Source of the DNA: a virus
DNA length: 38,336 nucleotides
Direction: 5' to 3' (one strand)
IMG/VR virus record: IMGVR_UViG_3300033153_011373
Span: 1-38,336 of that record
Positions within the stretch are counted from its first letter, which is position 1; every line of letters starts with the position of its first letter. Below, piece after piece: positions 637-24,774 of this stretch. A program made the translations under genes and the position numbers. Below the pieces are notes generated by a model, which had not been told where the DNA came from, searched no databases, and saw only the letters and a program-made list of their open reading frames with translations.

Positions 637-3600
637 TTACGCCGCTTTTCTAATATTTGTTTTCCAGTATCGTTTTTTTAATTTTTGCCGGGCTTTTTTT
701 CTTGCCGATTTGATGACTTTTTCAACGATCCGGGCCTTTTGCTTCGGCGTCATTTGCTCCCATCTATCGCTACCGATTAAATCTTTCAGCCGGCGACGGA
801 CAATATCACTCGATTCCTGAAGGTATTCGTTGTATTGGGCTGCTGTCAGCTTTTTAGGTATCCCCGCCGCTGTGATTCGCTTCGACGGCGGTCCCATCTT
901 TAATGACTCCGTTTCGATCAGTTCTTGTATGGCATCATAAACCGAATCTTCATCTTTTGATGGTACTATCGGCCCTTCAACCTTCGGCGGCCAGGCTGTG
1001 TGCATGTGCATGCCGGCGCTCTGCAACAAGAATGATAGAAAATCTTCTTCGCCTTGCAAATAACGTATCCCGTATCCGATTTGAATCGGTTGAAGATTGA
1101 TCGCCTGATTTACAGCCAGAGGTAGCAGCTGAATCCAGAACTGCTCTTTTTCATCATAGGGCGATTCTTTGATCGTTTTTCCGGTTTTTACAAATTCTCC
1201 CACTCCGGTAAATGGCCGTTCTCGCCAATCCTTGCCGGCCGTAAGCGCCTCGCCTATTCTTACAATCGGCGAGCCTTTATGCATAATCAGCCTGGCCGGG
1301 TTCATCAATTTTAAAATATCAAAAAAATGCCCGCCAATTGAAAATGTTTTGCGCGTGCCTTTAAGATCAATGCCCAGGGCTTTATATATTTTGCTGACAT
1401 CCACTTCCGTCCAGCGGAATTTAAAGAATCTATCTCGTGACATCTGTTCTTTATAAAATTCCCATGTATCATCCCATCCATTCAGCAGGAATTGTGTAAT
1501 TAAGGTCGATACTGCTATTCGGGTTATTACCCTGAACCAAAACCGACGATACAGCTTGTCCATACCAGGCGGCGGCGGAACATCCCCGATTTTTTTATTG
1601 ATCCATTCATTCAATCCGGGGATCATGCCGGTTACCGTCCTGAAATTACTTTCGGTGTTACCAGTAATAAACATCAATCCTTCACGTTCAGCGAGCCAAA
1701 AACCGGTTTCAACGGACGGACACCAAATTGTGCCGCTATAGTCCACCTTCTGTGTATTATTGTTATGCCCCCAACAATATATAGTTTTCGGTGTTATACA
1801 TCTTGTTCTCCAACAATTCTTTTCTTGCCGATAAAACGTACTTGGCCGGCCAAGCATCGTTTGTATCAGGGTCATGAAAAAGACTGGTTGCTCCCGACCG
1901 CAGAATCTATTTTGGCCGGTGCCGTCGGCAAGCATCATTGTGTCATAAAGAACCTTCAATTGTCTGTGTGTCAGTTTGCTTAAAAAATCCCACGTCAAGC
2001 CTTCGCTGACACCTTCTGCTTCCATTCTTTGAAATTCATCTGCGGGCACCGTAAAAACGTATTTTTTATAATTAGACACAAAATCATCATGGTCGGAATT
2101 ATATTTATCAGCATGGTATTTTAGCCCCATCTCTTTTAATATTTTAACCGTTTTGGGTTTGGATTGGGTTATTTTGCCATATCGATATTCTTTCATTGTG
2201 CCATCTGCCAAAGTGTCACTACTTTTTTTAACATACCCGTCTGTAACCATCCACCCAACAAGCTTAATGTAATAATCATTGTATGTTTCTTGAGTGGGGG
2301 CATCGAAGTCTGCACAACGGGGGATTGTGTGGTTTGTTTGGAGAGCGCTCGCCTTGACTATATCGTTGCGCTTTGTGGTTATGTTATAAACATAGCAAGT
2401 ATGGTCGGGAGTCATCATTACAGCCCGGTTATGATTTTTTATTTTAACCATCTCCCCGATATAATGTTCGTTGACATATTTATCTTTAATTTTAGACCAT
2501 TTAAGCTTCTTAGATTGGGGATCGAAGGCCATAATTTCATCATCGAGGCTCAATTCATCATATGATTTCCATCCTGTCTTTGTCATAGCCCTTGTTTTTG
2601 AATCCACGCACCAGTCAGGGGCGAATAGCAATAACCTCGCCACGGCCTGTAGGTCCGGGTTGCGCCCCATGCGCTCTAAATGCAGACCACCAAAATCGGC
2701 ATTTATCAATCTCGCAACTTTTTCGGCGATTTTATTTACATCCGGCGGCGAACCGCCTTTTTTAAGATATTCATTCTGTGCTTCTTGCAATTCATGCACA
2801 TACTCCATGGTAAAGGCTTCCATTTTCAGGCCCGTAAAAAACTTGTTAAACAGGCTGCCGGTAAATTTTTCCCTTAAAAATCCTCCATGTTCGATAAGTT
2901 TTCCGGTTTTCTCCAATCCCAAATAATTTGCCAGCCGCTGGATATACCCTTTTTGGTCCCGCAGCATGCTCTCATCAAAATCCTGCATGCGTCCTGTGGT
3001 CAATCCGTTTTTGATTGCCAGCATTGCAATCGGCGCTCGATCCTCAATCTTTTTTAATCCGGCTCTATATGCTTTTACAGGGTTCCAGCCGGAAGTCTTA
3101 TAGGTTTCGCCGGTAAGAGGATCTTTTAGTTCTTTACCGGCTTTCCAGCCGTGATGTATGGCAAAACCCCACGACCTGCCACCGGCAATATGATGGAAAA
3201 ATGATGACAGCAAAAGCCAACTTTTGGTTACGGCGTTAAATCTTAAAAGTGCCTGCTTGCCGGGTACCTCAACCGACAAACGTGAACGGGCGGTCATTTT
3301 ATTTATGATCTCTGCCAGTTGCTTGGGGGCATAAAGCTGCCGTTCTTCCCAGGCATCGGCAATATCCTTTGCCAAGCGATGATCAATATGAGTTTCAAAA
3401 TCTTTTTCCGCAGCAAACTCCTCAGCCGATTCCTGATCTAAAAATACTCGCAGCGCCCTTTTGCCTTGATTACCCTCTTCATCGATCTTAAACACTGCCC
3501 ACGTCTCGGGTTCCCGCTCCACGGCACCGAAAAAGAATTTTCTGCCGTAATCATCGATAATTAAGGCATTCGATTCATCCGGCGCAATATCGGTCTCTAC

Positions 3601-6600
3601 CCGGCCGGCCCATTCCCATATTTTAAATCCCGGAGCTTTCAACGGAGCATAATCTTTATGCTCGCCCTTTCTGGACGTTGAAAACATCCTGCGGCCTTCA
3701 GCATCCCTGGTATTATAGCCCTGGAGAATAAAATCCTTGTTCGCCAGAATAGCTTCCAGGTCGGCTATATAGGCACCATACGAGTTAGTCAGTCCTTGAA
3801 TTTTAAGATCATAACCGGCCATCCAGCCGTCAAGAATAGTCTCGAACGAACGCTTCATCTTGGCCGTGGTAAAGGTCTTGAACCCGTAGGCCGCGCCCGA
3901 AGATTTAAAATCGCTTTCCTTGCCCTTGGGCAAATTCCAAACACGGCGTACATAGTGATCCAAAAAGCTGTTCACTACTTTATTGGCTTTGGCTATTAAA
4001 AACGCCCGGTCAAAACGTTGCCCAATATCTTCCACCAGAGCCTTTTGTTCGTCGGTTAGCTTTTCCGCTCGATCAAGGATATCCAGATATTCTTTTATCT
4101 GGATCTTGCGCCCCTTCGGCGTCTCAGGGCTATCCAGGGCCTCTTTTGCCCATTGTTTGAATTCTTGGGCTTTATCCGGGTTAATTTTAAGATCCCGGTA
4201 TATCATCATCGCCATATCCAGACGATCCGACTCCAGGGAGCGCTTTAACTCCTTGTCATAGGCAAAGGGCGCAACGCGCCCCCGGCGGCTTTTGGGGCCA
4301 GCCAGTCGCTGAACCTCTTTTTGCAGTTCCTGAGTCTCCAGCTCGGCCTCTTTAATACCAACATCTCGCTGCTCAAATATACGGTTGGCAAACGACCGAT
4401 CTTTCTCAATATCATCCAGCGCCTGCTGTCCGGTTGGGGGGATTTCTTTTACGGAGTATTGGGGTATATCCTCTTCTGGAAGGACAGAAATTTTTTGCCC
4501 ACCTTTCCTCGGTGGGCTGGATGGTTTAGGGAGGAATTGCGATTGAAACTTCTTGCCAAGATTGTTTATCTTTTTAAGATTTGATTCGTTAAGTTCAATT
4601 TCAATTTCGTTTGGGCCAACGGCAAAACCTTTAATGCCTGTTTTTTTTCTTAAATGCTTCTCGATTATTATAGGATTTATTTTTTCTCTTATACCTGTCC
4701 TGGAATCAGGTTTTCCATAAATTTCCATGCGCAGTACCGGCGTTTCATAGTATTCTATTTCATTTTCTGAAAGCCTCCGATCCCCTGCGCCAAGCCTTCT
4801 ATATTGCCACTTTCTTTGTATGTCAATATACAAAAGATTGATATTAGACACATCATAATCAGACACCAGCTCTCTGTCAGAAATAATATCAAGCTTACCA
4901 TATAAATCTTCTTTTTTAACAACATCCTTCCCTGCCTTAGAGCCTATCACCTTTTCTAATTCAGCGATGTTATTTTTTAGTTGATTGGGGTTAATATCCT
5001 TATAATCTTTTCCATCTTTTGCCAAATCAACTTCTTTTTGTAAGTATGATAATGGCATGCGCCATTTTTTCTCGGCTTCAATTTTTATTTCACCGACTTC
5101 AAATGGTTTTAATTTGCCGGCATCCTCACTTTTTGCCCAAATCAACTCTTCCATAAATTCTTTATATTCTTTGTCAGAGCGACCCTCAGCATTAAATCTC
5201 GCCTTTACTTCGGCAGGATCAGAAAGATATTCCATATACCTCTCGATACTTTCTTCTGGGCTAACAAAAAATGCTTTTGGGGTTTCACCTGTCTGTATTT
5301 GCCCCCAATGTGTTAATTCATGAATTAGTGTTTTGCGGAGATTTTTCTTGTTGTTTTTTAAGGTGTCGCTTAATACAATTTCGCCTGATATATGATGAAT
5401 AGAGTTGGCTATAGATTCACTTGCAGGAACAAAATAAACTGAACCGCCATTTCTTTTGAATTCCCTTTTGGAATATCCAGTGACTTCAACAAACTCTTCA
5501 TCAGTTAATAAAGATAGCGAATTAGATGCGTCAACCCCGACATATTCCTTGCCGTTGTCGCCAATAAATTTTTTTGAATCTCGTTGATGAATAATTTCAG
5601 GAACAATTTCACCCTTCGGGCTTTGAGGGGTTTCTGTGGTGAGTATGTCGCCCGGCCCCTTTTTGGAGGTCATATATTGAGGGATAACACTTTTAACTTC
5701 TTTTTTCAAGGATTCGTGAATAGCCCTAACAACTGTCGGCCGGCCCGGACGCTCAAAAATGCGCCCGGTTTCAAACTCCCTGGCAACACCCTTTGCAGTC
5801 CGGTAAGCAAGATTCACCAAGGCATCGATGAAATCTCTGATCTTCTGAAGAATTCTGTAAAGCCGTCCTCGCTGCCTGTATTTTTCCCGCGCTTCAAGGT
5901 TGGATTCAATCCACCTGGCCCGGTCTTCCTTGGTCGGACGATAGGAGCTATCCTTTTTTTCAGCTTGAATTTGACGATTTAATACCCGGATATCGGCATC
6001 CTCCAGCAAGCCGATATCCTCGGCCCAGTGCTCTGCCTCATGATAAACTGTCCATTTGTCCGCAATGTCTTTTTGCAGCTCAATGGTCGAATCCTGATAT
6101 TTGCCGGCAAGCAGTTCACCGGATTTGCGCATCCGGCCGTAACCGACCCCAAAAGCAGCCCTGTCTTCTGCAATATGATCAACTGTGCGGATTACCAGGC
6201 CATGACCAGTCTTTGTTTTTACCCACAAATGACCTTCAGGAGAAAGCCCCACGGCCTGGCCTTTAAAAATTCTCTGAATATCTTTTAGAGGCAACCCTGA
6301 TTTTGCAATGCTTGTGCGGGTGGAATATTCAGGGTGGCCGCCGATTACCGTTTTGTAGTCTAAGGAGTGCTCTTTAAACAGATAGTTTTCTTTCAGTTCG
6401 TTCAGATGTTCGATTATTTTAGGGTCAGCATCTTCTCCGAGGAAGTCTTTTGCAAAATCGATCGTTTTTGAAACAGTGTCTATATGTCTTGGAGGAGAGA
6501 AAGCACCGTCAAATAGTTCTGCAATATCCTTTTGCAGCTTTTTGAGCATCCTTATGCGCTTTCCCTCTACATCGTCATATTCTCTGTCAATTTCTTCTTG

Positions 6601-9600
6601 AGGCTTGACTCCAGCACCCTCCTGCAGCTCCTTTTCGATCTCGGCCAATCGTTTCTCAGCGTCTTTTAATTCCTGCTCATGCGCAAAGGGCTCCTTGGTT
6701 ATTTTATTATATTCTTCAAGTTCGGTTTTAAGCCTATCGATCTCGTTACGAGTTGCTTCTGGCTGGTTGATAATACGGTCAATGGAGTGCCTAAAACTCT
6801 GAAAGATACCGGCCATTTTAAAGGACCATGAACGATGAACAATATCACCTTGATATTTTACAACAATTACAGGCTCTACAATTATTTCTTCAGAAAGCTT
6901 TATTTTTCTGGACGGCTCTTTTAACGCAGAAGATCTACTCCAGTCTGTGTCAGGATTAAAAGTAATTTTTAGATCGAACCCGTTGAAATCAGCCTCAATA
7001 TGATAAAGATGGTCTCCATTCTCTTGGAGCTTCCCATATTCCCCAAAAGTCATGCCGGAGAAGCGTTTCTTTATCTTCGCTTTTTTAGATTCAAGTTCAT
7101 CAGCCGCCTTTTTGACAAACTCTTTAGGTTCAAGTGTTTCCCCCTTATAATTAACCGACTTAACCTTCTTGTCAGGGAACTTCGATTCAATCAGCCCCTT
7201 GAACTTAATATCTTCTTTAAGATCGATTTCCTTGTTTGGGATTTTAGTGCTTTTAATATATTTCGCGGAGCGTATTGCGGTTGAAACTTTGCGCTTCCAG
7301 GTATTCCACAGAATATTGAAGTTCTTGATTTTTATCTCAACATCACTCTTTTCAAAAAGCAGAGGATTGCCAGCAAAGGCAGCGTTCATTTCCGCAAATG
7401 ATACTTGCTCCTCACTCAGCGGCTCATCAAAGGTTCGGCCCTCAATATCGCCGGTTAGCATCTGATCGATGAATTTTTGTTTTTTAGTGAGCCGGTCATA
7501 CATTACCGAATCAAGGGTGTTCTTGACCCCGTAATTGAAAATCATTACCTCTGAATTTTCGTTCTTTTCTCTGATAATGCGCCCGTTTCGTTGCTCAATA
7601 TCCATCGGCCTGGGAGGGGCATCCACATGGTGAGCTGCTATCAGTTTGTCTTGAATGTTGACGCCGATGCCAAGCCGTTGTGTAGAGCCAATAATAACCC
7701 TGGCCTTACCCTCTCTGACTCGCTGGAACCAGGACTCTCGCTGAATGTCGTTTGAATCCCTTACGACAATGATCTCCCTTGAGGGAATGCCCTTCTCGAT
7801 CAGCTTTTCTTTTATGTCGTTGTGAGCGTTAAAGGTTTTGGTAGAATCACGGAAAGTATCAAGAAATATTACCTGTGTGCTGCGATTTCCAGCGGTTTCA
7901 GTCCAGATATCATAAACATTTTCAACAACTTTATTTAACTTGCTGCCTGGATCATCCTTGTAATATTGAGGGTCAATCAATCGAAGGTCAACGGCAGCTT
8001 TCTTGGCCTGGCCGAATAAAACAAGGGGGACGTGCCTCTGTCTGCGTTTTTCTTTTCCAGGCAGATTTTCCCAATGCTGGCGCTCTTCTCGCAATTTGTC
8101 GATAAAATAGGTTAGCTCTTCGCTGCGATCAATAACAACATTTTGGGGCTTATCATCTTTCACTTTGGGAAGATTGAGGTTTGCCTGGCTCGTCAAAACC
8201 ACATCAGCAGCGGTATGGAACATCGTTAAGAGTTCCGGTCCGTTCACATACTTATTAAACCGCTCAACTTCTTTAAATGTTCCGGTCTCTGTCTCTTCAA
8301 TGGCGATAGTGGTATCTCCATAATTAGCCGCAAAATCATCAAACAAGGTAGCGTTAAACTCATCCAGAAGATCCGACCGGATATACCGTATCATGGTCCA
8401 CAGTTCTGCGGTCGTGTTGGAGATGGGTGTTCCGGTAGCCAAAATCACATTTTTACCACCGGTTTTTTGCTGTACATATTGGGCTTTCAGTAAAAGCGAA
8501 GTGCTGCGCTGGGCCGATCCCTGGTCAACACCTTTTACGGTTCCCATTTTTGTGAAAAACTCAGAACGCTTATATGCATGGGCTTCATCTATTAAAAGGG
8601 CATCCACGCCAAGCTGTTCAAAGGTGAGTGCATCATCTTTTCTGCGATCAAGAAGCCTTTCGAGCCGATTCATTTTGCGCTTTCTCAGGGCCTTCATGTC
8701 TTTTACCGTAAAAGACTGCTTGCCCTCTTTTTCCTCAAACTCGTCAATGGCCTCTTCGATCATGTCTAACTGCTCTCGAACAAATGCAGCCTCTCTTTCG
8801 GGATTATCAGCTATGCCGTCAAAAAACGAGTGAGGCAGCACAACCGCATCCCAATCACCGGTTGCAATTTGAGACAACAGCTTTTTGCGATTTTTACCTT
8901 TTCGCTGATTGTCTAAGGGGATAAGCACCTTTGCTTGCGGGTAAAGCCTTTTAAAATCTTTGGCATACTGTCTGACAGTGGCATTCTGAATTACAATCAG
9001 CGGTTTTCTGGCGGTCCCAAGGCGCCGCATTTCCATAGCAAGGGTTATATAAGTAAAGGTTTTTCCGGTACCAACACCGTATGCTAATAGCGTTGACTCT
9101 TGCAAACCTCTAACAACTGCTTTCTTTTGCAGGTCTCGGAGTGTTATTTCATGGGAGGCCCCTGGAAAAAAATCGATATCCGGGACTTCAAAATTTCTTA
9201 ATACGCTTCCGTTAAACTCTTCATTATATTTTATAGCCAGCTCGTCACCCCACTTCTCATGGCCTCTGGCCCAATTTAAAAACTCCGTCTGTATTTGCTG
9301 CTGCTTGGCCTGAGCTGCAAGGGTATCTTCTTTGTTTAAAGCGCTCCTGCTTTTGCCGTCTTCTTTCCAATAATCATAAACCTGAGTCCGTTTCAGGTTA
9401 AGGCAATCTTGAACAAGCCTATGACCCTCTCTCCGAGATGTACCCCAAGTATTCGTATTTTTGGCATCATATCGGCCGCTATGAACCCGGATGGCCCATG
9501 AACTCGTCTCCTGCGTTCTGACTTGTTCAACATCAGCCCTAACGCCCATCACTTCCTGGAGAAAATTCTCAACCGTTTCATTAGGTATCCAGGAAGAACC

Positions 9601-12600
9601 TAATTTAAAATGAATAAACTGGATATCAAGATCTTCCGGCTGTACCGCTTCAAGGGCCTTTATGTTCGCCTTATATTCCGGCCTTTCTTCAACTTCGGCT
9701 TTGACCTTTTCGAGCTTCTTTTTGACATTGCCGGACAGATAAACGTCTGGAGGCTCAAGCATTCCGTTCTCAGGATTGATATATGCTCTCTCGCTTTCCA
9801 AAAGACGTTTGCGGGCCTCATCTTCGGTGACCCCCAACAAATTGCCGATATATTTAGCATCGACCTTGTTTCGATAAATTCTGGATATTTTTACGGCATC
9901 TTCAATGCCCTCTGCGTACTCAGGCTCTTTGAAGGGCCAAATCGTTCGTCGTTTTAAAATCGCCGCTTTTTCAAACGTAATGACTTTTTTGGATACCTGC
10001 TCGCCTTGCCTCGGCCCGCTTTTTACCGTGGTTTTGACAATCTCGACATTTTCGTCTTCAAGAGCGTCCACTATGGGAAACTCATTGTCGATCTTGCGCA
10101 AAAATGAATTGGCAACTGCCCCTACATTGCCGTTTCTTTTTACGAACCTATCGTATATTTTGTTGAGATCTTCCCGAAGTCCGTCTATTTCATCATCTGT
10201 CGCATCCTCTTGCTGCATCCGGTCAATTAGAGTTTTGGTAGCTTCTCGAAGTTTCAAGTAGTCTTTTGCCCTACGATCCCTGGCCTTATCGCTGATAGCC
10301 TTTACAAGCTTCCCTTTTGAGTTATAAATTTTAGGCTCTTTCAGCAAACCATCTTCCACCACATAAATATGGCCGTCTTTTACGACTAAAACCCCTTCTT
10401 TGGCCCCTACTTCTGCAAATTGAATTTCCTCGGGGACCATCTTGGAGCCTTCACCGAATATATTTTCAGGAAGATGCTCGATGGCTTCGGCAAGTTGTTC
10501 CTCGATTTTTCCGGTTGGTAAAAGGGTGTATTCATCCTCGCCGCCCCTCATAGTTCCTGACAGGCTATGTTTACCTAAAACCATATCAGGATGATCGTCA
10601 AAATACTCATTAACTGACGCAGTTTTACCTTTTTCGGCAGGCACGTCTTTTAGAATTCGGAAATTTTTGCCTACTCCATGCAGCGCATCGTCTTTTTTAC
10701 GAAAGATCAGAATGTCCGTCGTAACCTCGGTTCCGGCATCCTTTTTAAAGGCTGTATAGGGCAATCGGACCGCCGCAACCAAGTCGGCTTTATTGCCAAG
10801 ATATTCACGTACATAGCCCCTGGTGGCCGCGTCCAGGGTCCAATGCGACGTAATACCCATCACAAGACCCCCCGGCCGCACAGCATCGATAGACCGTGCA
10901 AAATAATAATTATGAATGGCCCAGTCCGTGTATTCTTTGTGCTTTGGGTCATAGACTGAAAAATTACCAAAGGGAACATTGGTTATTACAAGATCAACCG
11001 AATTGTCCGGAATGCCTTTGGCTTTCTCATAGCCGATTTCTTGAATATGGGCCTGGGGATACAGTTTTTGAGCAATTCTGGCAGATATGGAATCAATATC
11101 GACACCTAAAAGAGAGGAATTGTCGGCAATGTGTTGCGGCATCAGACCGAAAAAATGACCTACGCCGATAGCAGGTTCGAACACGGTCCCGCCCTTGAAA
11201 CCCATCCGCTCGGCCATGGCCCACATGGAATCGATGACTTCTCGGGATGTATAAAAGGCGTTAAGGGTGGATTCGGCGGCCGATTCCCATTCGCTTTCGG
11301 TCAAAACACCGCCAAGGGTCGGATGAAGATGCTTGCCGTATTTATTTTCCCACGCCTTATATTTTTCCAGCTTGGATTTATCAGACCAATCATAGGGAGT
11401 GAAATAATCTTCAGGAGTGTCTTCGGAATAGTTTTTAAGGTAACGATCAAAGTCCCGATAAAATACTTTTTGGGCAAACGGACCCCAGCCCACATATTGA
11501 GCCAGGATTTTCTTTTCTTCAGGGGTTGGGTTGCGGTTTTCCGATTCGAGCTTTTTTAGAAGCTTAATCGCCTTAATATTGGCTTTAATCTTGGTTTCGT
11601 CACCCCGTGGGAAGATCGTATCTTCAGGCGCAATAACATGATTTTTATCTTCTTCTTTTAGCTCAGGCTTTGACTCCAGCTCAGGACTTCCTGGAGCTGG
11701 TTGTCCGGCAGCGGTTTCGGCGGGAGCTGGTCGCTCAACGGCGCCACGATCCGGCTTTGAACGATCTCTCTGATCTGGTCGGGCTCCAGTTTCCCCTCTT
11801 TTTTCAGGATGCTTTCTTGCAGGCTTGCCCTCTGCACGACTCTCAGGAGCTTCTTCTTCAGGCCCTCTTTGTCGCTCTGAAATAGATCCAGTGTCGATTG
11901 CGGGTGATTTTCCAGAAGGTATAGCAGGTGGGATTCCCAGTGCGGGTCGAGACTCGGATACTCTATCTCTAACTCTTCCGGTCTCAGTTTCTTCAACTCG
12001 TCTAATGTCAGTGGTTTCATCTGGCCCCTCCTTTTCTGTTGTTTGGATGGGCTTTTCTTTTAATATAACACCTTCTTCCGGTTTTGTCAAAGGTTCGGAG
12101 GGCTTTTCAACCTTTTCATATTTTAGCGTAATCCAACCACCTTCGCCCTCAGTTCTCTCTCTCAACTTTCCAATGTAAGACAGGCTCTCTATTGCCTTTC
12201 TGTTGTCGGCCTCGAAATCTTTTTTTATTGTATAGGCTACAGTTTCAGGGGTTTCTTCTGTCTTTTCCGGCTCCATCTCCCCAGCCTGCTTATCCCACTC
12301 GGCAAGAAGATCGGCGGCGGTTATTTCGGATGTGGGTTTTTCGGCTGGTTCGGCTTTTAATTTCCGCTCCTGTTTGGAAATCTCAAGATCCAAAGCATCA
12401 AGCGTGTCATTAGGGGGGGGCTCCAAGGCAATTTTTTCCGGATTGCCTCTTTCGTAAACTCGAATCGTCTCTTCAATTCCGGCAAGATCCAGGCCGAGCG
12501 CTTTGGCTTTCTTTAACCTCGACCGTAAATGCATTAAAAATTTTCCACTGATAGGGCTTGCATAAGCAGGCTCTTTCACCTTGGGCTTTTCGGCTTTTTT

Positions 12601-15111
12601 CCAAACCGCCCAAGTATCTTTACCGCCTTTCGGAAGATCAATAACTACCTCGCCGCCTACCTCCTCAGCTCTTCTTTGAGCTGCATATTTAGGAGAAAAC
12701 TGCCTTGAATAAATCTCATAATACCCTGTCGTTTTATTACCAACAATATCACCGGGCTTGCTGTCTCTAAAATCAATTATCTCAGCTTCAACCGGCTTTG
12801 CTATTCTGTCTTGTGCCAGCTTCTTTTCGATTTTATGCTTTTGCTGGAGAGCAAATTCCGGTTCGTCTATAATCAAGTCACTGGCAATAGCTGTTTCTTT
12901 ATCAGTCAAACCGGCGACATATTCTTTATATTCACGGTGCGCCTTTTGTTTTTTGGTCTCCTGTTCTGCATCAGGCTTTTCTTTTTCACGCAGCAACCTG
13001 GTTAACTCTGTTTTTTCGTCTGACAGATCCTTGATTTCAGCCTCAAGCTGCCTAACTCGATGGCCTCGATCATTAATAGCCATATCATACGCAAAATCCA
13101 TCCCTTGGCCGCGCTTGTATTTCAAATCTTCATCAATTGTTTTGAGGCGTTTTTTAATTTGAGATATGTTTAGATTTGCATAGGGGCTTTTATCCGGCGG
13201 CTCGCCGCCTTCGGCCTTGGGTTCTTCAACTTGGGCCGCTTTGGGCTTTTTACCGGTCAATATTTGAACGGCAGAAGGTTTTGCCGCTCCTTCTCCCTCA
13301 AGAGCCACATCTGTCTTTTCGGGAGAAGGAGCGGCCTGTTTGTCCTCGATGATCTTTTGGGCCTCTTCCGGTGTCATTTTGTAGATTTGATCGTCCGTGT
13401 AGCCTAAATCTTTGAGGGCTGCTTCGTCCTGGGCTGTAATAATAAATTTTACTTTGGCAGGTTCGGTTTTTTTATCGCCAGGCTTTACCTCCGCTTCCGG
13501 CGATGGGGTCCGGGCGCCACTCACCGTTTCCGGCGATGGGGCCCTGAGAGCTTGTGACGCCAGATATGCCCTGGCATATTCACGGGTGATATCGTCAACC
13601 GCCGAATCTTCAGCAGCCAGCTCCTCGGCTCGATCCTGGATGGTCTGTATCTGGCCGGGAGACAACAGGGCCTCCAGTTCCTCGATCGATCGCGGCTGAG
13701 TTATCAGCGGCTCTTCATTAGGAGTCATAGGCGCGGCCATTTCCGCGCCGGCGCCACTCGGTATTTCCGTCGATGGGATCCCGGGGAGAGTTTCTATTTC
13801 GGATTCGGGTCGTTTTTGGGGTTTTTTACCAATATCGGCAATAGACTCGGCATTCGATGCCAAAGGTTGGGCCTGGTGCAGTGTTTTTTCTTGTTCCGCT
13901 TTGACCTTGGCCGCATCGACCGGTTTTTCAATCGTCAGCTTGATCGGTTCGCCGGCATTAACGGCGTCTAAAGCCCCATCACTCCATTGCCGTGCAATTT
14001 CAGGGGAGGTCTTATTGAGAGCGTTGGCAACTTCTTTGACCGCTGCCAACCTTCTTTCCGGATCGGCGGTTTTATCCTCCAGTAGCTTGCGGGTGATATG
14101 AGCATTGGTGAGATTCAAACCGCCGCCCAGGGCACCGAATATCAAACTGGCTACCGTAACAGAGCCAAGATTCTCTTTTATTGCTTGCCAGAACCGCTGA
14201 TTATCGATGCCGGTACCAGCCCGGATTTCGGCCTGAGTACCTATATTCGCCAGCTCTCCGACCGTTTCTGCGCCGGCTATGGTTGCACCTTTTTTCAGCG
14301 ACTGTTTCCACGCGCCCTTTAATACTTTGGTCGCACCCTTTTTTAATGCTTCTTTGCCGGGGGCCGATAAAACGCCGCCTGTACCGAGAGTAACAATCTC
14401 GATCACATCGGTTAAAAGCTCGAACCCTCCTTCAGAGGCAGCCTCCAAAATCGCCGCTTCTTCGGCATCCGCTTCCGAAACGCCTCTTTTTAAATGCTCC
14501 TGCAAGCTCTGATCATACTGAGCCATGGAAAAAAGCGGCACACCGGATAGCCATCCAAGAACCGCTCCCAGGGGGCCGGCCAAAGCAAAACCGGTCACCG
14601 CCGCCGGCAATTTGACCGATAAAGAAGTGCCTGCGCTTTCAAGCCCTCCGGTGACCCAGGATCTGGGACCACCCTTCAAAGTTTCTTGGGATAACGGCAG
14701 CTCTTCTTCTTTAAAACCTTCAATATCCCGCGCCTTGGCCCTGGCCCATTTTTTTAGATCAAAGCCCCCGTCTTCACTTAAAACGTGGCGCTCTAACAAT
14801 TCATCAACTCCGGCCGCACCGTGTAAAAACATCTCAGGTACGCCCAAAGCAGCCCGCCCGCCGGAAACCATAATATCGGCCAGCAAGCTGCGAGACGGCG
14901 GCTCCGGACGGTGCGGAGCCAGGTTCATCTCGACGAAGTTGTTTCTCGTAAGCGCCAAGCTTTCTTTGGTTTGCTCTGCCAGCCATTCCGGATTTTTAGC
15001 AGCCAGCTCTTTATCGAAAAAATAAGCGATTCTTGCCTCTTTTTCCGAAAGCGGGAGATCCAGAAATTTTTGATTTTTAAACCAATTTTGTATGTATCTG
15101 TTAATCGGCAT
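637..15111 (-). CDS. Giant polyvalent protein: N6-adenine methylase + SF2 helicase + two HExxH motifs + LPD-type C-terminus, interrupted by an intein
   Basis: This is one uninterrupted 4824-codon frame. Residues 1-350 have hydrophobic/Gly-rich stretches (about 150-200 and 225-250) typical of ejected virion proteins. About 400-1190 is charged, Pro/Glu-rich linker. About 1204 has the YVGWG motif seen before DarB-type methylases. About 1310-1320 is SAM motif I (FEPAIGVGHF), and about 1372-1382 carries TNVPFG, an NPPY-like catalytic motif. A SF2/SNF2-type helicase follows: Walker A GVGTGKT near 2012, DEAH near 2173, ATGTPISNT near 2223, and QRNGRIIR near 2508. HEAEH (about 3025) and HELTH (about 3266) are two zincin-like sites. 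About 3550-4824 is a long alpha-helical region resembling the C-termini of phage large polyvalent proteins. Phage P1 DarB combines methylase and helicase and is injected with DNA to block restriction; a similar role is inferred. The start has only a weak RBS. Removing the intein leaves 4506 residues. Confidence 0.9.
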   Translation of the reverse strand: MPINRYIQNWFKNQKFLDLPLSEKEARIAYFFDKELAAKNPEWLAEQTKESLALTRNNFVEMNLAPHRPEPPSRSLLADIMVSGGRAALGVPEMFLHGAAGVDELLERHVLSEDGGFDLKKWARAKARDIEGFKEEELPLSQETLKGGPRSWVTGGLESAGTSLSVKLPAAVTGFALAGPLGAVLGWLSGVPLFSMAQYDQSLQEHLKRGVSEADAEEAAILEAASEGGFELLTDVIEIVTLGTGGVLSAPGKEALKKGATKVLKGAWKQSLKKGATIAGAETVGELANIGTQAEIRAGTGIDNQRFWQAIKENLGSVTVASLIFGALGGGLNLTNAHITRKLLEDKTADPERRLAAVKEVANALNKTSPEIARQWSDGALDAVNAGEPIKLTIEKPVDAAKVKAEQEKTLHQAQPLASNAESIADIGKKPQKRPESEIETLPGIPSTEIPSGAGAEMAAPMTPNEEPLITQPRSIEELEALLSPGQIQTIQDRAEELAAEDSAVDDITREYARAYLASQALRAPSPETVSGARTPSPEAEVKPGDKKTEPAKVKFIITAQDEAALKDLGYTDDQIYKMTPEEAQKIIEDKQAAPSPEKTDVALEGEGAAKPSAVQILTGKKPKAAQVEEPKAEGGEPPDKSPYANLNISQIKKRLKTIDEDLKYKRGQGMDFAYDMAINDRGHRVRQLEAEIKDLSDEKTELTRLLREKEKPDAEQETKKQKAHREYKEYVAGLTDKETAIASDLIIDEPEFALQQKHKIEKKLAQDRIAKPVEAEIIDFRDSKPGDIVGNKTTGYYEIYSRQFSPKYAAQRRAEEVGGEVVIDLPKGGKDTWAVWKKAEKPKVKEPAYASPISGKFLMHLRSRLKKAKALGLDLAGIEETIRVYERGNPEKIALEPPPNDTLDALDLEISKQERKLKAEPAEKPTSEITAADLLAEWDKQAGEMEPEKTEETPETVAYTIKKDFEADNRKAIESLSYIGKLRERTEGEGGWITLKYEKVEKPSEPLTKPEEGVILKEKPIQTTEKEGPDETTDIRRVEETETGRVRDRVSESRPALGIPPAIPSGKSPAIDTGSISERQRGPEEEAPESRAEGKPARKHPEKRGETGARPDQRDRSKPDRGAVERPAPAETAAGQPAPGSPELESKPELKEEDKNHVIAPEDTIFPRGDETKIKANIKAIKLLKKLESENRNPTPEEKKILAQYVGWGPFAQKVFYRDFDRYLKNYSEDTPEDYFTPYDWSDKSKLEKYKAWENKYGKHLHPTLGGVLTESEWESAAESTLNAFYTSREVIDSMWAMAERMGFKGGTVFEPAIGVGHFFGLMPQHIADNSSLLGVDIDSISARIAQKLYPQAHIQEIGYEKAKGIPDNSVDLVITNVPFGNFSVYDPKHKEYTDWAIHNYYFARSIDAVRPGGLVMGITSHWTLDAATRGYVREYLGNKADLVAAVRLPYTAFKKDAGTEVTTDILIFRKKDDALHGVGKNFRILKDVPAEKGKTASVNEYFDDHPDMVLGKHSLSGTMRGGEDEYTLLPTGKIEEQLAEAIEHLPENIFGEGSKMVPEEIQFAEVGAKEGVLVVKDGHIYVVEDGLLKEPKIYNSKGKLVKAISDKARDRRAKDYLKLREATKTLIDRMQQEDATDDEIDGLREDLNKIYDRFVKRNGNVGAVANSFLRKIDNEFPIVDALEDENVEIVKTTVKSGPRQGEQVSKKVITFEKAAILKRRTIWPFKEPEYAEGIEDAVKISRIYRNKVDAKYIGNLLGVTEDEARKRLLESERAYINPENGMLEPPDVYLSGNVKKKLEKVKAEVEERPEYKANIKALEAVQPEDLDIQFIHFKLGSSWIPNETVENFLQEVMGVRADVEQVRTQETSSWAIRVHSGRYDAKNTNTWGTSRREGHRLVQDCLNLKRTQVYDYWKEDGKSRSALNKEDTLAAQAKQQQIQTEFLNWARGHEKWGDELAIKYNEEFNGSVLRNFEVPDIDFFPGASHEITLRDLQKKAVVRGLQESTLLAYGVGTGKTFTYITLAMEMRRLGTARKPLIVIQNATVRQYAKDFKRLYPQAKVLIPLDNQRKGKNRKKLLSQIATGDWDAVVLPHSFFDGIADNPEREAAFVREQLDMIEEAIDEFEEKEGKQSFTVKDMKALRKRKMNRLERLLDRRKDDALTFEQLGVDALLIDEAHAYKRSEFFTKMGTVKGVDQGSAQRSTSLLLKAQYVQQKTGGKNVILATGTPISNTTAELWTMIRYIRSDLLDEFNATLFDDFAANYGDTTIAIEETETGTFKEVERFNKYVNGPELLTMFHTAADVVLTSQANLNLPKVKDDKPQNVVIDRSEELTYFIDKLREERQHWENLPGKEKRRQRHVPLVLFGQAKKAAVDLRLIDPQYYKDDPGSKLNKVVENVYDIWTETAGNRSTQVIFLDTFRDSTKTFNAHNDIKEKLIEKGIPSREIIVVRDSNDIQRESWFQRVREGKARVIIGSTQRLGIGVNIQDKLIAAHHVDAPPRPMDIEQRNGRIIREKNENSEVMIFNYGVKNTLDSVMYDRLTKKQKFIDQMLTGDIEGRTFDEPLSEEQVSFAEMNAAFAGNPLLFEKSDVEIKIKNFNILWNTWKRKVSTAIRSAKYIKSTKIPNKEIDLKEDIKFKGLIESKFPDKKVKSVNYKGETLEPKEFVKKAADELESKKAKIKKRFSGMTFGEYGKLQENGDHLYHIEADFNGFDLKITFNPDTDWSRSSALKEPSRKIKLSEEIIVEPVIVVKYQGDIVHRSWSFKMAGIFQSFRHSIDRIINQPEATRNEIDRLKTELEEYNKITKEPFAHEQELKDAEKRLAEIEKELQEGAGVKPQEEIDREYDDVEGKRIRMLKKLQKDIAELFDGAFSPPRHIDTVSKTIDFAKDFLGEDADPKIIEHLNELKENYLFKEHSLDYKTVIGGHPEYSTRTSIAKSGLPLKDIQRIFKGQAVGLSPEGHLWVKTKTGHGLVIRTVDHIAEDRAAFGVGYGRMRKSGELLAGKYQDSTIELQKDIADKWTVYHEAEHWAEDIGLLEDADIRVLNRQIQAEKKDSSYRPTKEDRARWIESNLEAREKYRQRGRLYRILQKIRDFIDALVNLAYRTAKGVAREFETGRIFERPGRPTVVRAIHESLKKEVKSVIPQYMTSKKGPGDILTTETPQSPKGEIVPEIIHQRDSKKFIGDNGKEYVGVDASNSLSLLTDEEFVEVTGYSKREFKRNGGSVYFVPASESIANSIHHISGEIVLSDTLKNNKKNLRKTLIHELTHWGQIQTGETPKAFFVSPEESIERYMEYLSDPAEVKARFNAEGRSDKEYKEFMEELIWAKSEDAGKLKPFEVGEIKIEAEKKWRMPLSYLQKEVDLAKDGKDYKDINPNQLKNNIAELEKVIGSKAGKDVVKKEDLYGKLDIISDRELVSDYDVSNINLLYIDIQRKWQYRRLGAGDRRLSENEIEYYETPVLRMEIYGKPDSRTGIREKINPIIIEKHLRKKTGIKGFAVGPNEIEIELNESNLKKINNLGKKFQSQFLPKPSSPPRKGGQKISVLPEEDIPQYSVKEIPPTGQQALDDIEKDRSFANRIFEQRDVGIKEAELETQELQKEVQRLAGPKSRRGRVAPFAYDKELKRSLESDRLDMAMMIYRDLKINPDKAQEFKQWAKEALDSPETPKGRKIQIKEYLDILDRAEKLTDEQKALVEDIGQRFDRAFLIAKANKVVNSFLDHYVRRVWNLPKGKESDFKSSGAAYGFKTFTTAKMKRSFETILDGWMAGYDLKIQGLTNSYGAYIADLEAILANKDFILQGYNTRDAEGRRMFSTSRKGEHKDYAPLKAPGFKIWEWAGRVETDIAPDESNALIIDDYGRKFFFGAVEREPETWAVFKIDEEGNQGKRALRVFLDQESAEEFAAEKDFETHIDHRLAKDIADAWEERQLYAPKQLAEIINKMTARSRLSVEVPGKQALLRFNAVTKSWLLLSSFFHHIAGGRSWGFAIHHGWKAGKELKDPLTGETYKTSGWNPVKAYRAGLKKIEDRAPIAMLAIKNGLTTGRMQDFDESMLRDQKGYIQRLANYLGLEKTGKLIEHGGFLREKFTGSLFNKFFTGLKMEAFTMEYVHELQEAQNEYLKKGGSPPDVNKIAEKVARLINADFGGLHLERMGRNPDLQAVARLLLFAPDWCVDSKTRAMTKTGWKSYDELSLDDEIMAFDPQSKKLKWSKIKDKYVNEHYIGEMVKIKNHNRAVMMTPDHTCYVYNITTKRNDIVKASALQTNHTIPRCADFDAPTQETYNDYYIKLVGWMVTDGYVKKSSDTLADGTMKEYRYGKITQSKPKTVKILKEMGLKYHADKYNSDHDDFVSNYKKYVFTVPADEFQRMEAEGVSEGLTWDFLSKLTHRQLKVLYDTMMLADGTGQNRFCGREQPVFFMTLIQTMLGRPSTFYRQEKNCWRTRCITPKTIYCWGHNNNTQKVDYSGTIWCPSVETGFWLAEREGLMFITGNTESNFRTVTGMIPGLNEWINKKIGDVPPPPGMDKLYRRFWFRVITRIAVSTLITQFLLNGWDDTWEFYKEQMSRDRFFKFRWTEVDVSKIYKALGIDLKGTRKTFSIGGHFFDILKLMNPARLIMHKGSPIVRIGEALTAGKDWRERPFTGVGEFVKTGKTIKESPYDEKEQFWIQLLPLAVNQAINLQPIQIGYGIRYLQGEEDFLSFLLQSAGMHMHTAWPPKVEGPIVPSKDEDSVYDAIQELIETESLKMGPPSKRITAAGIPKKLTAAQYNEYLQESSDIVRRRLKDLIGSDRWEQMTPKQKARIVEKVIKSARKKARQKLKKRYWKTNIRKAA
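1657..2610 (-). other. Intein with LAGLIDADG homing endonuclease inside the giant protein (residues 4168-4485)
   Basis: The intein begins at Cys4168, straight after the extein sequence LLFAPDW, and ends at Asn4485, before Thr4486 (TESNF). Rejoining gives APDWTESN, a continuous and natural extein. Block A is CVDSKTRAMTKTGW. Block B is the TPDH motif with the expected T-x-x-H. The two dodecapeptides are LVGWMVTDGYV (about 4283-4294) and LYDTMMLADGTG (about 4387-4398), both keeping the catalytic-type Asp. Block F contains CPSVETGFWLA and block G is MFITGN. The usual penultimate His is Gly and the usual block F His is also replaced, as in some phage inteins with Thr or Cys at +1. The DNA is visibly more AT-rich than both flanks, consistent with horizontal insertion. 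Boundaries are inferred from motif positions and extein continuity. Confidence 0.9.
11658..12020 (-). CDS. Nested overlapping gene inside the giant ORF (120-aa soluble acidic protein)
   Basis: This lies on the same strand as the giant gene, +1 relative to its frame. The ATG at 12020 is preceded by AAAAGGAGG with 6 nt spacing, a near-perfect ribosome-binding site that the giant frame does not need. The translation looks like a folded protein: MKPLTLDELKKLRPEELEIE, then YPSLDPHWESHLLYLLENHP, a Lys-rich helix (GLKKKLLRVVQRASLQESIL), IREIVQSRIVAPLSD and a C-terminal LQEVLSWSQSLS. The giant protein's own reading of the same DNA (residues about 1031-1152) is Arg/Glu/Pro/Gly-rich low complexity between the N-terminal module and the methylase, as expected if the nested frame carries the constraint. 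I do not recognise the family with certainty. It might assist the methylase/helicase, or be the ghost of a domain that lost its frame, though the good RBS argues for real translation. Confidence 0.6.
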   Translation of the reverse strand: MKPLTLDELKKLRPEELEIEYPSLDPHWESHLLYLLENHPQSTLDLFQSDKEGLKKKLLRVVQRASLQESILKKEGKLEPDQIREIVQSRIVAPLSDQLPPKPLPDNQLQEVLSWSQSLS

Positions 15112-17761: not shown

Positions 17762-17905
17762 TCATGTTTTTGATTGTTCAATGACTAGACGAAGGTCCAT
17801 TTTTTTTAACTTATTAAATAATGTTGTTTTAGGCATACCCAATTCATCCGCTTTAGATTCCCTCCTTCGTTTGTCTCTTTTACTGGCCCGGGCTTGATTG
17901 GGCAA
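17762..17905 (-). pseudogene. Possible small Fis-type helix-turn-helix ORF or remnant
   Basis: This is a 47-codon frame between the HNH gene and the repeat protein, overlapping the 3' end of the HNH gene. The translation contains ESKADELGMPKTTLFNKLKK, close to the Fis/NtrC-type recognition helix pattern (A..LG...TL..KL). The only start giving the full motif is TTG at 17905, with GGGAG at 6 nt. Shorter starts remove the helix. It may be a genuine tiny regulator, or the severed C-terminal HTH of a gene or endonuclease broken when the HNH element arrived. The latter seems likelier, because the frame has no ATG start containing the motif. Confidence 0.35.
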
Positions 17906-18488
17906 TAATTTCTCCCAGCGACATGGTTTTGAGCTTTTGATGTAAATCGTTAGGGCGAATTCCTATTTTAGATGCCCAGCCCGCGAGAACCATACGTTTC
18001 CCATCGTATTCTATATATCGGTTTGTCCTGGTGTTTTGAGATTGTGTTTTTCTTGATGCCCAGCGGCAATTGTCAGGTTCATAGTTGCCGTCATTATCTA
18101 TACGATCAAGAGTATACCCATCAGGACACCGGCCCATATCCTTAAGAAACTTTGTATAATCATTGGCCCATCTTGAACACATTGTTATTCCACGGCCGCC
18201 ATAATTTTTATAACTGGGATCTTTTTTATTAAAACAACGCTGCTTTGCTCCTGTCCAAGCATTGTATTCTTTGGATTTTATGTCGCCATGTTTAAAATTG
18301 TTTTTTTTCTTCAAACACCCACAACTTTTTGTATTGCCTGATTTTAAATCAGACGAACTTACTATTGTCTCGTTCCCGCATTCGCATCGACAGTCCCAGC
18401 GGGTATGGCCGATAGGGCTATTTTCCGCCCGCTCTATTACGGTTAACTTTCCAAATTTTAAACCTGTCAGATCCTGGAACTTTCCCAT
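17880..18488 (-). CDS. HNH homing endonuclease with N-terminal zinc-ribbon/AP2-like DNA-binding module
   Basis: The protein has 202 residues. The N-terminus (LTGLKFGKLTVIERAE) followed by clustered Cys residues (33, 35, 37, 56, 58: CRCECGNET and SCGC) is the module common to phage HNH nucleases. The HNH-like core is at about 125-145 (LDRIDNDGNYEPDNCRWAS). The C-terminus (VLAGWASKIGIRPNDLHQKL) is a NUMOD-like helix-turn-helix. Such free-standing nucleases cut intron- or element-less relatives and spread their own gene. It sits between the tail gene and the internal-protein genes, with no intron visible, so it is a selfish insert rather than a structural gene. The RBS is weak. Confidence 0.85.
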   Translation of the reverse strand: MGKFQDLTGLKFGKLTVIERAENSPIGHTRWDCRCECGNETIVSSSDLKSGNTKSCGCLKKKNNFKHGDIKSKEYNAWTGAKQRCFNKKDPSYKNYGGRGITMCSRWANDYTKFLKDMGRCPDGYTLDRIDNDGNYEPDNCRWASRKTQSQNTRTNRYIEYDGKRMVLAGWASKIGIRPNDLHQKLKTMSLGEIIAQSSPGQ

Positions 18489-22471: not shown

Positions 22472-22738
22472 CTAAACGGTTTTTTGGGCTTTCTTTAACG
22501 CTTTATCAAAGCTCGGTTTTTTGTCCGGTGCTGTTATTTCACAGGATGATATCCTGGCACCGATCCGCTTGCCTTTTTCCCAGGCATCAGGATTATCTTC
22601 CAACCTTGTTACTTTTGCCTTAATAACAAACGTAACATCATCATTCATGTTCACATCCGAAAAGCCTTTGGGTTCAACCTTGCCGCCATCCGGAAAAAAC
22701 AGATTCAAAGACGGCGGTTCTTTTATTTTTTTGGCCAT
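22472..22738 (-). CDS. Small conserved-type phage protein, function unknown
   Basis: The ATG at 22738 is chosen because AAGGAGG lies 5 nt upstream. A start 11 codons earlier has no RBS. The protein has 88 residues: a basic start (MAKKIKEPPSLNLFF), a beta-like centre (DVTFVIKAKVTRLEDNPDAW, ISSCEITAP) and a Lys-rich end. It follows the DGR cassette and precedes the secreted protein. Nothing enzymatic is visible. Confidence 0.6.
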   Translation of the reverse strand: MAKKIKEPPSLNLFFPDGGKVEPKGFSDVNMNDDVTFVIKAKVTRLEDNPDAWEKGKRIGARISSCEITAPDKKPSFDKALKKAQKTV

Positions 22739-22788
22739 GTCGCCTCCTTGGGTTGCGGGTATTGTTTCCATGAAATAGGACCCCGTAT

Positions 22789-23037
22789 CTACGTGAAGGT
22801 ATAATACCTATCTATTTTCTTTATTGTGGTTAAAAATGGTATCTCGCTGCCGTATTTTTCCATTTGCTCAATCAATATGTCGCTGCCCGTAAAAAACACC
22901 CTCTTTTCTCCGCCATCAATTTCAAATTGCACTGTCAAATATTTCCCGGAATTATTTTTGTTATATTTGCTTCTCTTGATTTTAAATCCGGTAATAGGGC
23001 CAAAAGTTCAGCCAGGGAGTTTGACTTCCGAGCTCAT
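22789..23037 (-). pseudogene. Small ORF directly downstream of the DGR template repeat, with an in-frame TGA
   Basis: The frame ATG 23037 to TAG 22789 is open except for TGA at 23008-23010 (codon 10). The reading is MSSEVKLPG-stop-TFGPITGFKIK..., continuing as a well-formed basic/beta domain (KYLTVQFEIDGGEKRVFFTG, DILIEQMEKYGSEIPFL) ending DRYYTFT. Trp at the TGA would give PGWTFGP. No ATG or GTG start with an RBS exists after the TGA. Most likely it is a recent nonsense mutation. UGA read-through and start from a non-AUG codon are alternatives. Other genes in the window use TGA as a normal stop, so global recoding is excluded. A sequencing error is possible. Confidence 0.45.
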
Positions 23038-23043
23038 GCTCCT

Positions 23044-23163
23044 CTGTCTCTGGGTGCAACTGCGAGCACCGATATTCGAATTCGTATTCCAGCGATAGTT
23101 ATTCGCATTACGACACCGGGAACTGCAATTCGTACCATTGCTCCAATTACCGCCTGCCAGCAG
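23044..23163 (-). repeat. DGR template repeat (TR)
   Basis: This 120-bp segment matches the 3' end of the target gene position for position. On the minus strand it is full of AAT/AAC codons (AAT TGG AGC AAT..., GCG AAT AAC TAT). Compared with VR there are 18 differences, of which 17 are adenines in TR changed to G, C or T; the one exception is the T of an AAT codon that reads GAG in VR. Adenine-specific substitution from TR to VR is the hallmark of diversity-generating retroelements. TR starts 45 bp after VR ends. It contains no start codon or RBS of its own and is presumably transcribed as the RNA template. Confidence 0.92.
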
Positions 23164-23205
23164 CGCCAACCGACTTATAACTTTTGGCCGCAATCGTTTG
23201 CCGTT

Positions 23206-24267
23206 TTACTGGCTCCGGGCGCAACCGCGAGCACCGAGAATCGAACTCGTAGCCCAGCGATAGCGCTCCGCATTACGACACCGGGAACCGCAATCCGTAC
23301 CATTGCCCCAATAACCGCCCGCCAGCAGTTGGGTATTGCCGTAACTATTCGTGCCATACGTGTAGAACGAGCCTTTGGAATTGGGCAGGTCATACCAGGC
23401 TCCGGCCGTACCGTCATCCAATCGGGCCGACGGTGTTTGCAGCCACTGCCACATCGCACCGCAACAATCCTCACAGCCGATGTTGCTGATCATACGGCGG
23501 CCGGCCGTGTCGCTATGCCCTCCGGTCGTTACCGGATCGGCCGAACCGGAAATATTGGTTTCTTCGTTGGAGCCAGCGGCAATAAGCTGGTACTCCATAT
23601 CCGAAAGCAGCCTCTTGCCGACTGCGCCGAGATCGTCTACAAAATCGTTCCAGTCACGCGTATCGGTAATTGTAGCCCCGTATGCGCTGGCCGTACTGCC
23701 CCCCGTTCCGCTCTGGAGATAAATATCTACCCACAGCTTTGCCTCGTCGCTCCATACCATCCCTTCGGGCGAGCAGACCGGACGATGTTCCAGATCCCAC
23801 ACCGATGCGGGCAGGATGCTTTTATTGGTATATCCGGTCAATGTGTGACCGCCGATTGTGCCGACATCCGCGCACAGGGTGTGGAAACCGCCTATTTTAC
23901 GCGAATTGTCGGCCGTGTATCCGGTTGGATACGTGCTGTTAAGGGAAATTACTATGGAAGCGGTTCCGGCGCCTTCGTCGCAAAGATATACATAATAATC
24001 CTTGCCGGCCTGAAGCGATCCGGTGTCCAGGTTGGTCGAGACATTGACATCTACGTCCGATGATTTCTGAAAGACCTTGTGTACGCCGCTGTTAATGATT
24101 TTAATGGCGCTGTCGGCTTTAATTGTTAGCTCGGATGCGGATTTAGCAACAATGAACGGCGTTTCCGCTACGTTTATGGACGGATGAACCTCATGCATGT
24201 TGTCGGCATTTAAATAATAGTCCGACGAATTTTCATCCTTCCATTTGATCTGCAATTCATCGCTCAT
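23206..24267 (-). CDS. DGR target protein with C-terminal C-type-lectin-like variable domain
   Basis: The protein has 353 residues. The RBS is AAGGA at 7 nt. The N-terminal half (about 1-150) is beta-rich (SASELTIKADSAIKIINSG, DVNVSTNLDTGSL), like a fibre-attachment domain. The second half has the known phage DGR target pattern: SVWDLEHRPVCSPEGMVW, then WNDFVDDL, a Cys cluster IGCEDCCGAMWQWLQT, and the final LLAGGYWGNGTDCGSRCRN with YRW and ILGARGC. This is the CLec/formylglycine-enzyme-like fold whose last strands and loops form the variable ligand-binding surface. VR ends at the stop codon. It probably is a tail or fibre tip adhesin diversifying receptor specificity. Neighbouring adaptor and tail genes support a virion role. 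Confidence 0.88.
   Translation of the reverse strand: MSDELQIKWKDENSSDYYLNADNMHEVHPSINVAETPFIVAKSASELTIKADSAIKIINSGVHKVFQKSSDVDVNVSTNLDTGSLQAGKDYYVYLCDEGAGTASIVISLNSTYPTGYTADNSRKIGGFHTLCADVGTIGGHTLTGYTNKSILPASVWDLEHRPVCSPEGMVWSDEAKLWVDIYLQSGTGGSTASAYGATITDTRDWNDFVDDLGAVGKRLLSDMEYQLIAAGSNEETNISGSADPVTTGGHSDTAGRRMISNIGCEDCCGAMWQWLQTPSARLDDGTAGAWYDLPNSKGSFYTYGTNSYGNTQLLAGGYWGNGTDCGSRCRNAERYRWATSSILGARGCARSQ
23209..23328 (-). repeat. DGR variable repeat (VR) at the 3' end of the target gene
   Basis: This 120-bp region pairs with TR 23044-23163. Variable codons include Tyr, Gly, Asp, Gly, Glu, Arg, Ala, Ser, Ile, Leu, Gly, Ala, Arg and Ser where TR specifies mostly Asn, Ser, Thr or Gln. Invariant framework codons (GG.W.NGT, SRCRNA, YRW, GAR.C) are unchanged. 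The 3' identity of VR and TR ends at CAG, followed by the target stop TAA. Confidence 0.92.
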
Positions 24268-24282
24268 ATATTTTTTCCTTTT

Positions 24283-24585
24283 TTAGGCAGCCAAAAGTTT
24301 TTGAACTTCTTCAACCGTAAATCCAAGTTGAAATATTTTGGCGTTTGGATCTTCCTTGAACTCATACTGGTATCTTTCAATCTCTTCGGCTGCATTTTCG
24401 ACCTCGACAACCTTGTGCGACCCATCGGTGATCCCTTTATCGTCAGAACCAAGCAAGCCCGTGTTCAGCCATTGATTCTTTTCATCAATCAAAGTCTGCA
24501 AAGCGGCCCTGGTTTCATCCGGATAATCGTCGAGCAAATTCAAAAAATCCTGTTTGGTATTAAGATGATTGGGAAATCCGCGCAT
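24283..24585 (-). CDS. Small phage protein, function unknown
   Basis: The protein has 100 residues. The RBS is AAGGAGAG at 5 nt from ATG. The sequence is acidic and helical (TKQDFLNLLDDYPDETRAAL, AAEEIERYQYEFKEDPNAK) and ends FTVEEVQKLLAA. No motif is recognised. It sits between the zinc-ribbon gene and the DGR target. The acidic helical character would suit a chaperone or scaffold-like helper for the tail protein that follows, but nothing specific supports it. Confidence 0.65.
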   Translation of the reverse strand: MRGFPNHLNTKQDFLNLLDDYPDETRAALQTLIDEKNQWLNTGLLGSDDKGITDGSHKVVEVENAAEEIERYQYEFKEDPNAKIFQLGFTVEEVQKLLAA

Positions 24586-24609
24586 ATTGTCTCTCCTTGG
24601 AAGCCGGCC

Positions 24610-24774
24610 TTATCCAGGCAAAATGTCATCGTCGCCCAAATCCATATCGCCGGACATATAATCCCCGGCATCAGCCCCGCAATGCGGACACACTTCCGGG
24701 TCTTCATACATCTGGTCGTCCTCGATCCAGGTTGCCGGACATGCCGGGCATTTTCTGACATCACCGAAAGCCAT
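24610..24774 (-). CDS. 54-residue zinc-ribbon protein
   Basis: Short ORF starting MAFGDVRKCPACPATW and containing VCPHCGADAGDY, with two CxxC knuckles about 20 residues apart, followed by an acidic tail (MDLGDDDILPG). The start ATG at 24774 lies only 2 nt after the stop of the preceding gene, so translation is probably coupled. The CPxC...CPHCG pattern is a rubredoxin-like or zinc-ribbon fold common in small phage proteins. The role is unknown; structural stabilisation or nucleic-acid binding are guesses. Confidence 0.7.
   Translation of the reverse strand: MAFGDVRKCPACPATWIEDDQMYEDPEVCPHCGADAGDYMSGDMDLGDDDILPG

Follow-up and report, generated by a model that had tools for sequence, protein, structure and literature searches.

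Does the pair of similar repeats at the end of a tail protein gene in this viral DNA belong to a working diversity-generating retroelement (DGR), or to the remains of one? The window, that is the whole stretch of DNA analysed here, is the entire IMG/VR record of 38,336 bases, a linear fragment that may be incomplete. A repeat search of the window returned an ungapped pair of 120-nt repeats at 23044-23163 and 23209-23328, with 45 bp between the copies, just as the initial annotation had described. The template repeat (TR) had been called the downstream copy, which is correct on the minus strand, from which the target gene is read, but not on the plus strand. The variable repeat (VR) is the other copy, and the features around the pair are the following.

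22789..22995, minus strand: C-terminal two thirds of an accessory ORF without ATG (pseudogene), about 41-67% identical to the ORF that follows the reverse transcriptase (RT) gene in relatives
22995..22996: deletion junction; compared to relatives, the rest of the TR-RT spacer (Sp), the whole RT gene (about 1 kb) and the first ~38 accessory-ORF codons are gone
22996..23043, minus strand: 5' remnant of Sp, with the conserved stretch AAACTCC-CTGGCTG kept and the likewise conserved CAAAAYACACAACGGAG motif and the terminal hairpin gone
23044..23163, minus strand: TR, full length, 45 nt beyond VR on this strand
23164..23208, minus strand: stop codon and 45-nt VR-TR gap, with no significant hairpin on folding
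23209..23328, minus strand: VR, coding for the final 40 residues of the target protein and carrying A-derived substitutions
23206..24267, minus strand: Mtd-like receptor-binding tail protein, 353 aa (PF21916, phrog_11262, AF2 model), with a C-type lectin fold at the C-terminus
24283..24585, minus strand: gene for a 100-aa protein, upstream of the target gene and part of an exchanged module (~22732-24661)

The repeat pair and its target gene

Read on the minus strand from TR (23044-23163) to VR, the 18 differences comprise 11 A>G, 4 A>C, 2 A>T and 1 T>G. The reported bias was borne out: 17 of the 18 mismatches fall on adenines of TR, which has 31 A in 120 positions (hypergeometric P = 2.2e-11). 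In all, 15 codons differ between the copies, 14 of them non-synonymously, and the TR codons are mostly AAY or AGY. VR and TR normally differ in the IMH/IMH* zone, and since the two final A mismatches (23216 and 23212) fall within it, the clear mutagenesis events number about 15. In the core region of the pair, 12 of 24 A sites and 1 of 64 non-A sites are changed, leaving the framework outside adenines identical at 63 of 64 positions. Neither the window nor any of 15 other pairs has more than one non-A change in the core, and the window in this respect resembles intact relatives.

The protein encoded at 23206-24267 matches PF21916 (mtd_2nd, E 4.6e-33) and the tail protein family phrog_11262 (E 7e-68). 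Its AlphaFold (AF2) model, built on relatives, has a mean pLDDT of 68.7, with low values for residues 1-73 and 236-257. In Foldseek the model matched Mtd 1yu4 with E 9.8e-20 and a TM score of 0.70. The best structural matches were five BPP-1 Mtd structures (E 1e-19 to 2e-17), followed by other DGR variable proteins and formylglycine-generating enzymes. The protein has both the second domain and the lectin-like C-terminus of the Mtd family; its identification as a DGR target is secure, and VR does form the C-terminus of a CLec-type phage protein, as had been claimed. A scan of genome contigs found eight Mtd relatives, none of them closely related to the window.

If the 3' end of the gene had simply been duplicated in tandem and had then diverged neutrally, with no DGR involved, two copies 45 bp apart would also be expected, but we rejected this explanation and give it practically no credence: 17 of the 18 differences lie at A of one copy (P 2e-11), like pairs adjoin an RT in more than 20 relatives, and the target gene is Mtd-like. 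The locus instead resembles the DGR of Bordetella phage BPP-1 (Mtd, Avd, TR, bRT), in that the target has the fold and family of Mtd, VR lies in the C-terminal lectin domain, TR is located downstream on the same strand and the differences are A-specific. Unlike BPP-1, the window has neither RT nor Avd, and its Sp is truncated.

The surroundings of the pair were compared with those in L078 (45.5 kb), the phage with the most similar major capsid protein (90% identity), which is syntenic with the window at ~73-81% DNA identity. The L078 stretch matching window positions 22732-24661 contains ~4.2 kb of tail-fibre-like genes instead, and no RT was found in L078. Because synteny breaks at this interval, the DGR remnant lies within an exchanged receptor-binding module. 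The module includes the 100-aa gene at 24283-24585 (minus strand), possibly a tail-fibre chaperone, whose homologue in several relatives follows the accessory ORF rather than standing upstream of the target gene.

The deletion junction and the truncated spacer

The locus had initially been read as a DGR. This stands as regards the TR/VR pair, which is genuine and belongs to an Mtd/C-type-lectin tail protein, but not as regards a working element: RT is absent from the record, a deletion junction is present and the spacer is truncated. Neither an RVT_1 search in six frames of the 38,336-bp record nor a tblastn search of the window with the DGR RTs of seven relatives gave a match, and no RT with an SQ motif accompanies the cassette in this possibly incomplete record. 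An RT is present in 24 of the 41 contigs that carry a relative of the target gene, and it starts shortly after TR wherever TR was mapped. The order of the cassette in relatives is mtd(VR)-TR-Sp-RT-small ORF; in one clade the ORF after RT is ~95-108 aa long and often shows a short overlap. The window has TR, then ~48 nt of the Sp start (AAGTCAAACTCCCTGGCTG..., as in L070 and L071), and then the middle of the accessory ORF, the remnant of which begins with ITGFKIKRSKY... and extends from 22995 to 22789 with no ATG start. Compared to intact elements ~1.2 kb is missing, corresponding to ~75 nt of spacer, RT and ~38 codons; the breakpoint near 22995 was placed from divergent relatives and is accurate to a few bases.

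To characterize the lost part of the spacer, 14 intact spacers were aligned, and the alignment was used for RNAalifold and for a covariance model, R1. RNAalifold gave 19 pairs, of which 14 are backed by compensatory changes; most lie in a 12-bp hairpin directly before RT. The motifs GGCTG, CAAAAYAC...GGAG and AGTA are near-invariant among the 14 spacers. The elements of L006 and L007, both in the model-building set, score 106-111 bits with R1; outside that set L021 scores 68 and L076 50 bits, and the RT-less L001 scores 76 bits. The window scores 19.4 bits, and 9 nt stand in place of 55 consensus positions, the hairpin among them, so that the structured TR-RT spacer is truncated and without its terminal hairpin. 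The IMH* region is present but altered: TR ends in GAGACAG at its 3' end, compared to GAT(A/C)CA(G) in intact relatives, and the T at position 3 of the aligned region, invariant in 14 of 14 intact spacers, is G in both the window and L001. Downstream of VR, folding of five flanks (the window and four related ones) was no better than that of shuffled sequences, and no significant hairpin was detected there.

Taken with the target fold and the adenine bias, these results make it very probable that an Mtd-type DGR once stood here and survives in the window as a remnant, its VR frozen after a ~1.2-kb deletion that included RT. While RT was present, the element would have worked like that of BPP-1: RNA comprising TR and spacer would have been copied by RT into cDNA, with errors at adenines, and this cDNA would have overwritten VR and so changed the surface with which the tail tip binds its ligand. 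One deletion event of ~1.2 kb would then have taken out the 3' part of Sp, RT and the first part of the accessory ORF, leaving VR fixed at one variant and TR as a fossil. The loss looks recent because the framework of VR and TR is so nearly identical outside adenines; low non-A divergence may mean either this or that TR had little time to drift.

The same low divergence would fit continued activity in trans, where an RT encoded in a missing part of the genome, or by a co-infecting phage or prophage, still mutates VR from the window's TR. A linear-fragment record leaves room for an RT elsewhere in the genome, TR is of full length with its framework nearly unchanged, remote VRs are known for DGRs (PMC8144416), and one relative (the L006 record) has two DGRs with two RTs. 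We nevertheless consider such a supply unlikely, given that RT adjoins its own TR in related loci, that L078 is without RT over its 45.5 kb, that the TR 3' end carries a substitution where all 14 aligned intact spacers agree, and that the window's Sp is without the conserved motif and terminal hairpin. In BPP-1 the spacer brings in RT-Avd and provides the adenine from which cDNA is primed (PMC12875486); because Sp is truncated in the window, analogy with this role suggests that the window's TR is probably unusable even with an RT in trans. Ongoing VR variation in the window phage is unlikely because RT is absent, the junction lies at the RT site and Sp is truncated.

Activity and repeated loss of the reverse transcriptase in relatives

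The DGR family is active where RT is present. The initial annotation had predicted variation of VR at TR adenines against a constant TR, and this was seen, with few exceptions, in RT-bearing relatives. Among L032, L033, L035 and L036 there are 16-23 VR differences, 15-21 of which are at TR adenines, with 0-1 TR differences, and between L039 and L040 all 19 of 19 VR differences are at TR adenines, with identical TRs. Comparisons of L020 with the others, and the pair L037/L038, were left out as being out of register. The RTs of relatives have the DGR SQ motif, IGNYTSQ in most, and the regular expression matched none in L024. A degenerate 44-base TR pattern (A as N) matched nothing in all viral contigs, and no near-identical relative of the window was found. 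As a separate observation, the TRs of L020, L022 and L023 differ at adenine positions from that of the near-identical L021, as if TR had been mutagenised or reads of VR and TR had been mixed in assembly.

At least five other lineages have lost RT, with breakpoints differing from that of the window. L019 and L021 are ~98.5-99.5% identical in their main aligned blocks, and L021 keeps RT; in L019 a deletion of 1,356 bp runs from the middle of TR to a point inside the accessory ORF, and its junction shows no clear microhomology. In L001, RT codon ~8 (MRRHGNLF) is fused to the end of the accessory ORF, and in L013 and L077 it is the region just past VR that is fused to this end. In L111 and L113, which are identical in two assemblies, VR is followed by an intact accessory ORF, TR and RT being gone. 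RVT_1 had no match in the records of L019, L001, L013, L077, L111 and L113. Each breakpoint differs, which argues for independent events of RT loss. Six further contigs (L003, L008, L012, L025, L026, L028) have the target gene without any nearby DGR part, reflecting either complete loss or a locus that never had a DGR. The retained accessory C-terminus may be under selection or may reflect ascertainment, as several of the losses were located via the accessory-ORF fragment itself and complete losses would leave none. The intact ORF at L111:4001-4288 and L113:4001-4288, of the OB type described below, may act apart from RT.

The relatives also bear on whether the window's contig represents its population. 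The junction is known here from the assembly of a single contig, which could be a deleted minority or a chimeric join within a mostly intact population, through a mixed population or mis-assembly. RT-deleted and RT-bearing forms do occur in one very close pair, L019/L021; short-read assembly of TR/VR repeats is difficult, and the TR A-site differences among L020-L023 could be chimeras. We consider an artefact or minority genotype quite improbable all the same, since the partners at the junction, Sp and the accessory ORF, are not repeats of each other, and similar losses occur in at least five other lineages, one of them identical across two separate assemblies.

A genuine deletion remains our preferred reading, and RT-less elements have a precedent. 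DGRs, Mtd and RT-less DGR fragments are already known, the last from Nanoarchaeota DUSEL4, where partial DGRs were proposed to be fossils or remotely served (PMC4372165). The window is like these in having an A-mutated VR without an adjacent RT. Unlike DUSEL4, where the target gene, VR and cis elements alone are present, the window keeps TR, part of Sp and the junction, and a series of relatives from intact to lost exists. DGR surveys begin from RT, and RT-less elements therefore go uncounted. The phages here span successive steps of this loss, and in one ~99% identical pair a single member has RT, which makes it possible to ask when diversification of receptor binding stops, and at what cost.

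The accessory ORF and other features of the window

The accessory ORF had no significant match in Pfam or NCBIfam and no clear match in PHROGs, where three members of the ORF family matched phrog_19665, of unknown function, at E 0.005 to 0.014. Its AlphaFold model has a pLDDT of 87 and the element order b-b-b-helix-b-b. The model had no significant Foldseek match (best E 0.06), and VIA-align matched it with OB folds, namely RuvBL2 domain II (Z 7.1), the SSB 3lgj (Z 6.6), POT1 and RPA. The predicted OB fold is likely rather than proven, because these Z values are middling, and it does not by itself give a function.

A profile search with the accessory ORF reached 187 contigs, of which 80 loci were kept for a neighbourhood count. 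RT lies directly upstream in 69 of the 80; in the others it is ~0.4-0.5 kb upstream (6 loci) or downstream (1), the contig end cuts the locus (2), or the locus is that of L111 and L113 (2). Homologues follow RT in the archaeal virus ANMV-1 and the Methanosarcinales virus vir525. The DGRs of these viruses (adtA in ANMV-1) share the order target-RT-small ORF with the window's family, their small ORF being homologous to the window's fragment; unlike the window, both keep RT. The paper on ANMV-1 gives one of its ORFs a putative Avd label.

Accessory DGR proteins on record are Avd, HRDC and MSL (PMC10053308). Unlike BPP-1, where Avd stands between VR and TR, the window's family has the OB-fold ORF after RT. 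Avd (PF05635) was found between VR and TR in L032, L033, L037, L091 and the second DGR of L006, all RT-bearing with a long VR-TR interval. In a PF05635 scan extended to 22 more records that carry the OB-type ORF, none had Avd; the scan's own controls were silent, the positive control being the earlier PF05635 scan. PF05635 is likewise absent from the window record, which has the truncated OB-fold ORF instead. L017 and L018 have RT with neither Avd nor an OB-type ORF seen. The distribution is suggestive of mutual exclusion, though not a complete one. In the 43.6-kb phage contig of the L006 record (IMGVR_UViG_3300049911_000188) there are two DGRs, each with an RT of its own; the OB-type ORF accompanies one of them and Avd the other.

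The OB-fold ORF is therefore a candidate for an alternative DGR accessory factor, and its conservation hints at a factor in retrohoming that is unnamed in sequence libraries. More tentatively, it is quite possible that the OB-fold protein, probably binding single-stranded nucleic acid, replaces Avd in one clade of Mtd-type DGRs, where RT would be repeatedly deleted, the last good VR kept and receptor specificity locked; the window would be one such locked phage. In the literature searched, with a main classification paper outside the search, we found neither an OB-fold DGR partner nor a comparable deletion series, and both seem to be new.

Elsewhere in the window, a single ORF of 4,824 aa (637-15111, minus strand) with SNF2-type helicase domains (PF00176, E 9e-9) is a giant polyvalent phage protein. 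Towards its C-terminal end it contains CVDSKTRAMTKTGWKSYDELS...MFITGNT, a segment without a Pfam match that is intein- or Hint-like in appearance. A 202-aa ORF at 17880-18488 (minus strand) reads like a homing HNH endonuclease (MGKFQDLTGLKFGKLTVIERAENS...), with no match in Pfam or NCBIfam. Finally, two neighbouring ORFs at 36644 and 36880 (minus strand) both start with MNETILKIP, a small duplicated 5' segment.
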